DNA from: Tolumonas osonensis
Lineage (GTDB): Bacteria > Pseudomonadota > Gammaproteobacteria > Enterobacterales > Aeromonadaceae
Assembly: GCF_014202415.1 (NCBI RefSeq)
Contig: NZ_JACHGR010000002.1
Span: forward strand, 186,001-250,000
Direction of reading: 5' to 3'
Length of the DNA: 64,000 nt
Within the stretch, counting starts at the first letter, position 1. Every line of letters starts with the position of its first letter. Below, piece after piece: positions 36,073-59,534 of this stretch. Made by a program: the position numbers and the translations under genes. The notes under the pieces are model-generated. The model was not told the DNA's origin. It worked only from the letters and a program-made list of their open reading frames with translations, and ran no database searches.

Positions 36073-36149
36073 GCGTCCTTAGCTCAGCTGGTTAGAGCAC
36101 CACCTTGACATGGTGGGGGTCGGTGGTTCGAGTCCACTAGGACGCACCA
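36073..36149 (+). tRNA. tRNA-Val (GAC), copy 2
   Basis: Identical over all 77 bases to copy 1 and separated from it by 28 bases of unrelated A+T-rich spacer. The tandem pair mirrors E. coli valV-valW. A common transcript is likely. Confidence 0.98.
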
Positions 36150-36184
36150 TTTCTCAGTGAATCAATCTGTTATCTCTCTTTTGT

Positions 36185-37123
36185 TCAATACGCCTTTATC
36201 GGTGTCATAAACCCGTTCGGTTTAATCGCAATCAATGAGCAGTTTAAGTTTTGTAGTACATTCTCTGCTGTATTACCGATTACAAAACCAGGAATGCCAC
36301 TTCGACCAACAGTTCCCATCACCAATATATCAATGTCGTTCTCAGTGATGAATTGAGGAATGACTTCATCCGGACTCCCCCGAACATGGGCGACATCATA
36401 ATTCTCAGTGAGCGCTGATTCCTGGATTAGTTTATTTAATGCATCATAATGATGTTGGCTTGTTGCATTAACAAACTTGGCGAGATCTTCCGCGTCTACT
36501 CTGACGCTCATATTCTTCGACAAATATTCTTCAAATATATAATCCCAGCAAGATATTATTTTAAGTTTTTCATTATATGTGTTGGCAAGTGACCTTGAAA
36601 TTTCGAGTAAATGTAGCGTTAGAGAATGGCCTTCCGCAGTCGGACTTAATGGGTCAATTGCAACTGCGATATTCTTTTCATGATCCTGTTTATGTGTTGC
36701 CTTTGATATCCACGCTGGGCAAGGGCATTTACGCAAAATGTCCATATCGATTGCTTTGAAACCACGTTCATCATCAATTTTTTCTGCATCTTTAATCAAT
36801 AAGTCATAGCCATTTTTGATGATATGACGAATAACGAATATCGAAGGGATACTGCTATATTCAATCTTGAAGCTCAGAGCAAAATCGGACTCATTCAGAG
36901 TGCTTTCACTGCGGATAGCCTTGAGATCATGCTTAAATTTGTCAGCCACGGAAAACTCAAAAACAGGCTTATATTCAGACAATTCTTTGGGGAATTCAGG
37001 GCAAACAACCAACACATCAAGTTTTGCCTGGTTCTGATGAGCTAAGCGGACAGCATGTTTTAAGGAGTTTTTTACCTCTAACATGCCATTGCTAACTAAT
37101 AGAATTTTCTTGAAATTAAGCAT
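36185..37123 (-). CDS. uspE: Universal stress protein E (tandem Usp domains)
   Basis: Stress-response protein with two Usp domains in one chain. The 312-aa protein begins MLNFKKILLVSNGMLEVKNSLKHAVRLA. A second Usp repeat starts near the middle (KNIAVAIDPLSP) and ends with the nucleotide-type motif VMGTVGRSGIPGFVIGNTAENVL. The start is set at 37123, with GAGGA upstream; an in-frame start six codons earlier is less conserved. It lies 35 bases past the second tRNA-Val, convergent with it. The uspE label is by architecture. Confidence 0.88.
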   Translation of the reverse strand: MLNFKKILLVSNGMLEVKNSLKHAVRLAHQNQAKLDVLVVCPEFPKELSEYKPVFEFSVADKFKHDLKAIRSESTLNESDFALSFKIEYSSIPSIFVIRHIIKNGYDLLIKDAEKIDDERGFKAIDMDILRKCPCPAWISKATHKQDHEKNIAVAIDPLSPTAEGHSLTLHLLEISRSLANTYNEKLKIISCWDYIFEEYLSKNMSVRVDAEDLAKFVNATSQHHYDALNKLIQESALTENYDVAHVRGSPDEVIPQFITENDIDILVMGTVGRSGIPGFVIGNTAENVLQNLNCSLIAIKPNGFMTPIKAY

Positions 37124-54501: not shown

Positions 54502-56430
54502 TTATTCCTCCACAACATTTAATCCACGAGTGCTGATTTCTTTGCGTAACTTTTCTACTAAATCAGTTACTTTGAATTTACCTAAATCAACACCTTTACG
54601 GGTTCTTACTGCGATTTCGCCTGCTTCCATTTCTTTGTCACCGCAGACAAGCATGTAAGGAACGCGTTTCAAAGTATGCTCACGGATTTTAAAGCCAATC
54701 TTCTCATTTCTCAAGTCCGCTTTTGCACGAATCCCTGATTCATTCAAAGTATTAACTACTTGTTTCACATATTCTGCCTGATTATCGGTGATATTCATCA
54801 CGACAGCCTGCAAAGGAGCCAGCCAAAGTGGGAAATAACCCGCGAACTCTTCAGTCAGAATACCGATGAAACGTTCAAGTGAACCCAGGATTGCACGGTG
54901 AATCATCACCGGCACATGGCGTTCGTTGTCTTCACCGACATAGGTCGCACCTAAGCGGCCCGGTAATGCGAAGTCCAGCTGAACAGTACCGCACTGCCAT
55001 GCACGATCCAGACAGTCATGCAGCGTGAACTCGATCTTAGGACCGTAGAACGCGCCCTCGCCCGGTTGCAGTTCAAATTCGATATTGTTGTGTTTTAATG
55101 CTTCGCTCAGTGCTTCTTCTGCACGATCCCACATTTCGTCACTACCAATACGTTTTTCCGGACGGGTAGACAGTTTTACTGCGATATTCTGGAAACCAAA
55201 GGTACTGTAAGTGTCATACACCATACGGATACAGGAAGAAACTTCATCCTGGATCTGGTTTTCCGCACAGAAAATATGCGCGTCATCCTGAGTGAAACCA
55301 CGTACACGCATCAGACCGTGCAGAGAGCCTGATGGCTCATTGCGGTGACAGCTACCGAATTCAGCCATACGCAGCGGCAGATCACGGTATGATTTCAGAC
55401 CCTGGTTAAAGATCTGAACATGACCCGGGCAGTTCATCGGCTTAATCGCGTATTCGCGGTTTTCAGATGAGGTGGTGAACATGGCATCGGCATATTTGTC
55501 CCAATGGCCTGAACGTTCCCACAGTACGCGATCCATCATGAACGGGCCTTTAACCTCTTCATAATCGTATTCGCGCAGTTTCTGACGAATAAAAGTTTCC
55601 AGCTCACGGAAAATGATCCAGCCATCGTTATGCCAGAACACCATACCAGGCGCTTCTTCCTGCATATGGTACAGATCAAGCTGTTTACCGATTTTACGGT
55701 GATCGCGTTTGGCTGCTTCTTCAAGACGTTGCAGATACGCATTCAGCTGTTTCTTGTCAGCCCATGCAGTACCATAAATACGCTGCAACATTTTGTTTTT
55801 GGCATCGCCACGCCAGTATGCGCCGGAGGTTTTCTGCAGTTTAAAGTGATGGCAGAAACGCATGTTTGGCACATGCGGGCCACGGCACATATCAATGTAT
55901 TCTTCGTGGTGATACAGACCCGGCTGGTCGTCACGGGCGATGTTTTCATCCAGAATCGCAACCTTGTAGGTTTCGCCACGGGATTCAAATACATCGCGAG
56001 CTTCCTGCCAGCTCACTTTTTTCTTCACGACATCGTAATCTTTCTGCGCCAGCTCAAGCATACGAGCTTCCAGCGCCTGAATGTCTTCTTCGGTCAGGGT
56101 ACGATCAAGATCTACGTCATAATAGAAGCCATTATCAATGACCGGACCGATAGCCATCTTGGTTTCAGGCCACAGTTGTTTGATAGCATGACCTAATAAA
56201 TGCGCACAAGAGTGACGCAGAATCTCCAGACCTTCCTGATCCTTGGCGGTAATGATCGACAGAGTAGAGTCTGATTCAATCAGTTCACAGGCATCAACCA
56301 GTTCGCCGTTAACGCGACCAGCAATACAGGCTTTCGCCAGACCAGCACCGATGCTTGCAGCAACGTCATACACGGAAACAGCATGATCAAATGCGCGTTG
56401 GCTACCATCGGGAAGTGTAATTACAGGCAT
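54502..56430 (-). CDS. thrS: Threonyl-tRNA synthetase
   Basis: Charges tRNA-Thr. The 642-aa protein, the same length as the E. coli enzyme, has a TGS domain at the N-terminus (residues 1-61), an editing domain that deacylates Ser-tRNA (with [10 protein letters not shown]), a class II catalytic core with a zinc Cys in [10 protein letters not shown], motif 2 HRNEPSG and motif 3 [15 protein letters not shown], and the C-terminal anticodon-binding domain ([16 protein letters not shown]). In E. coli it represses its own translation by binding a tRNA-like leader. A similar structure is seen just upstream. infC follows three bases after the stop. Confidence 0.99.
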
Positions 56431-56520
56431 GATGTATCCTTACAGTGGTGACACACACCAAGTGTCACTTGTTGATAGTGAGGTTAAGTTGAAAGGCAAT
56501 GTCCGCTACATTCGGACATG
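56431..56520 (-). promoter_or_regulatory. thrS translational operator with two tRNA-Thr anticodon-arm mimics
   Basis: Two 7-bp stems with 7-base loops precede thrS on the minus strand. The proximal hairpin (56448-56468) is GTGACAC-TTGGTGT-GTGTCAC; its loop reads like an anticodon loop with U33 then GGU. The distal hairpin (56499-56519) is ATGTCCG-AATGTAG-CGGACAT, with UGU at the anticodon position. Both triplets are threonine anticodons. The Shine-Dalgarno AAGGA (56437-56441) lies six bases after the proximal stem. This matches the known E. coli thrS operator plan. Confidence 0.88.
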
Positions 56521-56583
56521 TCGGGCAAGAGTCTAATGAAATGTGAATACGGGTGCAAACAAAGATGCTGCCTTTGACCCTAA

Positions 56584-56613
56584 AAATAAAGGCAGCCGAA
56601 GCTGCCTTTATTT
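56584..56613 (-). terminator. Rho-independent terminator of rplY
   Basis: AAATAAAGGCAGC and GCTGCCTTTATTT flank a tetraloop (TTCG when read on the minus strand). The stem lies just after the rplY stop at 56628 and is followed on the minus strand by a T-rich tract. Confidence 0.9.
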
Positions 56614-56627
56614 CACTGTCCAAGCAA

Positions 56628-56915
56628 TTAAGCGCGGATGAAGTCCAGGTGAACTACTTTTGGCTTAACTGGATGACGTTGAACCGCAGCTACTTTAGCT
56701 TTAACTTCTTGGCCATCAACAACCAGAGTCAGAACTTCGCTGTAGAATGCAGCTTCTTGCTGAGCAGTGATGATTTTGTTGTGGTCCAGAACCAGAGAAA
56801 CGGCTTCCTGACCTGCACCGTACAGGATTGCAGGAACTTGTTCAGCACGACGCAGGCGGCGGCTCGCACCTTTCCCCAGGTCTTTACGAACTTCAGCTTG
56901 GAATGAAAAAGACAT
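56628..56915 (-). CDS. rplY: 50S ribosomal protein L25
   Basis: Binds 5S rRNA in the large subunit. The protein is 95 aa from [23 protein letters not shown] (56915) and has the L25 pattern ([35 protein letters not shown]). The open frame extends 30 codons upstream, but homology and length (E. coli, 94 aa) place the start here. Short single-domain form, not the CTC type. Confidence 0.98.
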
Positions 56916-59363: not shown

Positions 59364-59414
59364 ATGACCTTACTGAAGACTGTGCATCACCATCACCGCC
59401 ATCATCCGGAATAG
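59364..59414 (+). CDS. hisL: his operon leader peptide
   Basis: A 16-codon frame reads MTLLKTVHHHHRHHPE and then TAG. It has six His codons in seven, as in the E. coli leader with seven. Ribosome stalling at these codons when His-tRNA is scarce lets transcription pass the downstream terminator. The peptide precedes the attenuator hairpin and hisG. Confidence 0.96.
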   Translation: MTLLKTVHHHHRHHPE

Positions 59415-59480
59415 TCTTTCAGGAGGATTGCTGCTGGAAGACACAAACGTGACTTCCCAGTGGTTCCCAAGCCAATCACT

Positions 59481-59516
59481 AAACCCTCGGAAGCCACTAC
59501 TTCCGAGGGTTTTTTC
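59481..59516 (+). terminator. his attenuator terminator
   Basis: ACCCTCGGAA (59483-59492) and TTCCGAGGGT (59501-59510) form a 10-bp stem with an 8-base loop, followed by a run of T. It ends about 20 bases before hisG. It is the terminator arm of histidine attenuation. Confidence 0.94.
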
Positions 59517-59534
59517 ATTTACAAGGATATAACT

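Follow-up and report, generated by a model that had tools for sequence, protein, structure and literature searches.

The closest described system to the leader reported here is the translational operator of Escherichia coli thrS, whose mechanism we take from excerpted accounts in PMC11088916, PMC7373986, PMC9976931 and PMC3858243. In the excerpt of PMC3858243, the ribosome site of E. coli thrS mRNA is bipartite, its two parts separated by the hairpin for threonyl-tRNA synthetase (ThrRS), and the Shine-Dalgarno sequence quoted there is the same UAAGGA that precedes thrS in our window (the whole 64,000-nucleotide stretch of Tolumonas osonensis DNA analysed here). The anticodon mimics in yeast HisRS and AspRS mRNAs offer a further parallel but are eukaryotic and concern other synthetases. 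Torres-Larios and others reportedly described, in 2002, a conserved motif in the RNA, lying outside the loop and fitted to the enzyme, and are said to have extended it to some Gram-negative bacteria, so we do not claim the range of the operator beyond E. coli as new. Among the literature matches listed, searched by titles and abstract openings, there was no comparative study of thrS leaders.

In the window, thrS (54502–56430, minus strand) encodes a ThrRS of 642 amino acids and has as neighbours rplY, upstream, and infC, both recognised from their translations. Read 5′ to 3′ along the minus strand, on which all features of the leader lie, the upstream region holds a terminator-like hairpin after rplY, two promoter-like blocks, a distal hairpin, a linker, a proximal hairpin and the Shine-Dalgarno sequence. 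The distal hairpin (56499–56519, the counterpart of E. coli domain 4) has a 7-bp stem, AUGUCCG/CGGACAU, and the loop AAUGUAG with UGU at 56510–56508, and the proximal hairpin (56448–56468, the counterpart of domain 2) has a 7-bp stem, GUGACAC/GUGUCAC, and the loop UUGGUGU with GGU at 56459–56457. The linker between them (56473–56498, domain 3) is partly variable in sequence and mostly unpaired when folded; in a 92-nt leader it is predicted to be unpaired in the centroid and to have a few paired bases in the minimum-energy structure. An initial annotation of this DNA had described two hairpins with 7-bp stems and 7-base loops before thrS, the proximal one ending six bases before the Shine-Dalgarno, and both hairpins are found where it placed them, as is the spacing (stem end at 56448, AAGGA at 56441–56437). 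Its claim that both loops display threonine anticodons at the proper place holds for the triplets GGU and UGU themselves and not for the preceding base, which is U33 in the proximal loop only and A33 in the distal one. To this description of the arms we add an outer helix, ACA/UGU (56442–56472; 56472–56470 with 56444–56442), supported by folding and covariation, and an A/CAC internal loop (A56469; 56447–56445) that separates it from the proximal arm. The first base of the Shine-Dalgarno UAAGGA (56437–56442), U56442, also closes this outer helix.

The window leader shares with the E. coli operator its gene, its position, the register of the proximal loop (UUCGUGU in E. coli, UUGGUGU in the window), the outer helix with its N/CAC loop, the Shine-Dalgarno UAAGGA, an upstream arm with GU in its loop and a colinear ThrRS. 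The two differ in the upstream gene, which is rplY in the window, in the places at which the loops start (−82 and −31 in the window, −100 and −35 in E. coli) and in the distal arm, which in the window is a perfect 7-bp stem with a 7-base UGU loop and in E. coli, by reading, is UUUCGC/GCGGGA with the 8-base loop AGAGUGAA. The enzyme is full-length with editing and anticodon-binding domains, aligning without gaps over residues 1–642 with E. coli ThrRS (1qf6; 1272.5 bits), and is 95–96% identical to the ThrRS of two other Tolumonas contigs. Residues N575, E600 and R609, which we take to be contact residues, are identical in the window and E. coli enzymes, and the relatives listed with the E. coli enzyme include 1kog, presumably the ThrRS–operator complex. 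With high confidence, we interpret the window leader as an E. coli-type thrS translational operator through which ThrRS would repress its own translation. Retained autoregulation, as the initial annotation had proposed, is very likely and in our analysis the best reading, because it joins an E. coli-type operator (a homologous, covarying proximal arm and an upstream GU arm) to a colinear ThrRS.

Transferred from E. coli, the mechanism would run as follows. Transcription would start just 5′ of the distal arm, to judge from conserved blocks, and each arm would present a 7-base loop with GU at places 35–36 of the tRNA-Thr anticodon, with one arm available to each subunit's anticodon-binding domain in the ThrRS dimer. 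ThrRS in excess over tRNA-Thr would then bind both arms, and the proximal arm, presumably anchored by the outer helix and CAC internal loop beside the Shine-Dalgarno, would position the enzyme above the ribosome site, where it would block initiation, until free tRNA-Thr competed it away from the leader.

The proximal arm carries most of the comparative evidence. In an alignment of 48 leaders, hand-picked among the 75 different proximal regions that 110 loci provided and including the E. coli row, the inner stem is 99.7% paired, with both-sided changes in five of its seven pairs, and the covariation score of the whole structure is 0.469, against a mean of 0.200 after shuffling and at most 0.161 with slid partners. 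The arm immediately upstream of the thrS ribosome site, which carries GU at 35–36, is thus homologous to E. coli domain 2 and has a covarying stem. None of the 48 rows departs from G35, U36 or the flank CACUG, and the third pair of the outer helix (columns 17–47) is AU in 17, GC in 16, GU in 9, CG in 3, UA in 1 and unpaired in 2. Pairs beyond the outer helix are kept in about half of the rows (columns 14–16 are unpaired in 21, 24 and 25 of 48). The leaders thus have a conserved CAC internal loop and a covarying outer helix, which may correspond to the motif reportedly described by Torres-Larios and others.

A covariance model (R1) found a single match in the genome of origin at E≤10, the proximal arm of the thrS leader (48.8 bits). 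Across the class it matched 29 of 276 genomes (the genome of origin included), all 29 before thrS, with filters so strict that weak matches are lost; in a phylum sample it matched 35 of 249 genomes, all of the same order or class, with 29 of 34 same-order genomes among them (again counting our own); three of the five misses in the order are genomes of 1.0–1.2 Mb. The order is Enterobacterales in what we take to be the GTDB sense, which includes Aeromonadaceae, Vibrionaceae, Shewanellaceae and Pasteurellaceae. A direct rule (a 7-position stem in which only the pair closing the loop may be mismatched, and GU at loop places 4–5) recovered the proximal arm in 109 of 110 related thrS loci (L001–L110, which contain repeats between two sources and comprise 104 distinct 150-nt leaders) and in 27 of 28 loci hit by the model.

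Outside the order, the same rule found the arm in 36 of 80 sampled class members and no arm in 44, whereas each of the other 15 loop dinucleotides occurred in at most 3 of the 80. Thirty of the 36 arms have the CAC flank and 14 have a perfect stem; one, at −74 and lacking the CAC (L236), is doubtful. An earlier rule, which required six or more uninterrupted pairs enclosing the loop, found 17 arms among the 80, with other dinucleotides reaching 4, and was replaced because many leaders carry a loop-closing mismatch; the 7-position rule was chosen after the sequences had been seen, and all 16 dinucleotides were subjected to it in the same way. The sample took about every second thrS place among the matches listed outside the order, with six more added from the upper rows, and the lowest-scoring of the 183 genomes (of 187 outside the order) with a thrS match are not represented in it. 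If anything, 36 of 80 is too low, since rows that were already model hits were replaced by neighbours.

These data bear on whether the hairpins could be chance structures, or a transcription-attenuation device. By themselves, two such hairpins are only mildly surprising, because GU-loop hairpins are not rare: the two strands of the window together hold 11 hairpins with a perfect 7-bp stem and a 7-base GU loop, both arms included, against a first-order Markov mean of 7.5, and same-strand pairs 21–80 nt apart arose twice in 40 control windows. Conservation before thrS, as judged from the compared sequences, clearly lifts the arms far above chance, and the absence of a U tract after either arm speaks against attenuation, so that, with covariation and a position before thrS maintained across the class, we regard either explanation as exceedingly improbable. 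Folding energy was considered as evidence for the operator and rejected, the leader being ordinary against shuffled sequences: neither the 151-nt leader (z +0.58) nor the 92-nt leader (z −0.93) is unusually stable, and the arms folded singly give z −3.78 (distal) and −0.62 (proximal). The Rfam search of the window returned no operator family, and at E≤1 the window leader had four Rfam 15 matches, none reaching its gathering score and all lying within 56575–56630, outside the arms. The E. coli thrS leader had no Rfam 15 match at E≤1, and the thrS operator would therefore escape Rfam-based annotation.

We asked what the loops mimic. The initial annotation had proposed that two different threonine isoacceptors are imitated, and a deliberate sampling of GGU and UGU tRNAs would let control answer to their separate levels. 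All eight same-genus leaders (the distinct leaders from 8 of the 11 genomes searched in the genus) keep G34 in the proximal loop and U34 in the distal one, and the genome has threonine tRNAs with at least UGU (two), GGU and CGU anticodons among 20 tRNA-bearing stretches, which are part of 77 tRNA matches. The combination of G and U with 7-base distal loops is found in 18 of the 63 leaders (of 110) in which a fixed rule detects both arms, same-genus rows included. Against this, base 34 varies widely across relatives: in the proximal loop it is C in 59, G in 45, A in 3 and U in 2 of the 109 arms of the related loci, C in 12, G in 10, A in 3 and U in 2 of the 27 model-hit arms, and C in 24, G in 10 and U in 2 of the 36 arms outside the order. 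Nor is base 33 fixed: of the 109 arms of the related loci, 89 have U, 15 A and 5 G. In these counts GU at 35–36 is demanded by the rule, and its independent support comes from the dinucleotide contrast and the 48-row alignment.

The combination of base 34 in the two arms also changes between species, taking 8 forms in the 63 two-arm leaders, or 11 when distal loop length is counted. G34 occurs in both arms of Aeromonas cavernicola, C34 stands distally in L009, the nearest other genome, and E. coli has C34 proximally and A34 distally, its distal loop reading AGU in this register. A review states, in the excerpt on this operator, that both E. coli operator loops contain the anticodon CGU (PMC7373986). 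Bacterial threonine identity elements in an excerpted review table are G34, G35 and U36 (PMC9976931), whereas thrS operators keep G35–U36 and not G34. Because base 34 varies and GU at 35–36 is kept, the operator would mimic NGU rather than a chosen isoacceptor, and we do not uphold the mimicry of two isoacceptors; control tuned to separate GGU and UGU levels seems to us very unlikely. Aligning thrS leaders, one of the checks that the initial annotation had suggested, has a divided outcome: the proximal stem covaries, GU is kept and the genus keeps GGU with UGU, while base 34 drifts beyond the genus.

The distal arm presents a second anticodon-like structure upstream, equivalent to domain 4, for which ThrRS binding is predicted. 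In the eight same-genus leaders its loop is invariant and its stem changes at one pair only (C-G, U-G, U-A), so that covariation support within the genus comes from that one pair, the arm varying little there; L009 has AACGUAG as its distal loop and a mismatch, U-C, as its top pair. For the order as a whole we took hairpins of at least 5 pairs in 62 non-redundant leaders, and since these were chosen by pairing, only the dinucleotide contrast and a common position count as evidence. GU-loop distal hairpins were found in 35 of the 62, against 3 to 15 for other dinucleotides, and in 31 of the 35 the loop starts at −110 to −81; by this rule 27 of the 62 have none. Outside the order, a second arm with GU was at chance level in the 36 arm-bearing leaders (GU 9, TT 9, GC 8), in a test less powerful than that in the order because the stretches available were unequal (14–208 nt where a tRNA gene is present, otherwise up to 125 nt). 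One leader outside the order (L196, genome G205) has an 11-bp second arm upstream of the proximal one, with the loop UGCGUAU, and may be an independent two-arm operator.

The ThrRS site might instead consist of the proximal arm only, with the distal hairpin protecting or insulating the 5′ end of the mRNA and its UGU incidental. Consistent with this, one arm appears to be enough in much of the class, and a putative promoter would have the mRNA begin almost at the distal hairpin. Two blocks upstream of the distal arm, TTGCAC-17-TAGACT (56530–56558), are kept in the eight same-genus leaders with a variable spacer and match the consensus weakly; they weakly suggest a thrS promoter, which would set the putative mRNA start 2–3 nt 5′ of the distal arm. 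A consensus promoter scan did not report this promoter at its threshold. The terminator-like hairpin after rplY (56582–56609; UUCG loop and U tract), whose stem is kept in the same eight leaders, is likewise absent from the output of that scan. Yet inside the order GU is favoured in distal loops, within the genus some of the linker has drifted whereas the distal loop and stem have stayed the same or changed only in compensated ways, and E. coli domain IV is described as bound by ThrRS in the excerpt of PMC11088916. A site limited to the proximal arm is on balance unlikely, and we favour an operator in which both arms would be bound.

The control switch itself is known from E. coli, and some new detail lies in which of its parts evolution keeps. 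Comparative evidence extends a classic case of molecular mimicry, with natural operators that keep anticodon bases G35–U36 and leave base 34 to drift. One-arm operators would offer natural variants for gauging the contribution of the second arm, and the two-arm form may be lineage-specific.

The one-arm leaders of other class members have the same proximal arm as the window, with the CAC flank noted above. They differ from it in that a second GU arm does not exceed chance, in a stem pair next to the loop that is mismatched in 22 of the 36 arms, and in the tRNA-Val(GAC) gene that 49 of the 80 leaders have among the 326 bases fetched upstream of thrS. Such a mismatch, also seen in the distal arm of L009, makes the loop in effect nine bases long. 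The tRNA gene precedes the thrS leader in many class members outside the order (for example L117, L121 and L134), and of the 26 genomes there that R1 had matched, 19 have it in the fetched loci. The 110 related loci, by contrast, gave no tRNA gene in a search that recovered the five tRNAs of the window as a positive control. The arm and the tRNA-Val(GAC) gene are not tied to each other: both occur in 22 of the 80 leaders, the arm only in 14, the tRNA only in 27 and neither in 17. Where both are present, 14–208 nt separate the end of the tRNA from the arm. A single transcript of tRNA-Val and thrS was considered and not adopted, terminator-like hairpins with U tracts being seen by eye between the two in several loci (for example L174 and L189).

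This distribution suggests, though it does not prove the direction of change, that the operator was elaborated to its two-arm form within the order. A fuller scenario, in which the dimer-matched two-arm form is derived and largely restricted to Enterobacterales, the one-arm form behind tRNA-Val(GAC) is older and more widespread, and the second arm of Tolumonas is the most tRNA-like, is tentative, and we give it slightly less than an even chance.

Three further observations concern the surroundings of these loci. One genome of the window's family (G012, locus L023, 3604–4335, minus strand) has a 243-aa open reading frame just upstream of thrS whose product matches the N-terminal residues 1–241 of ThrRS at 45% identity (with GWGPH in place of the CRGPH of the full enzyme) and is possibly a freestanding editing-domain paralogue; at this locus the R1 operator arm stands before the full thrS only. 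An Rfam match to HPnc0260 (36111–36257, minus strand) lies exactly at the gathering score (59 bits), is antisense to and overlaps the second tRNA-Val of the window, and may be chance. Elsewhere in the window, a histidine operon leader (RF00514, 77 bits) was found at 59390–59518 on the plus strand, before an apparent hisG, as expected.
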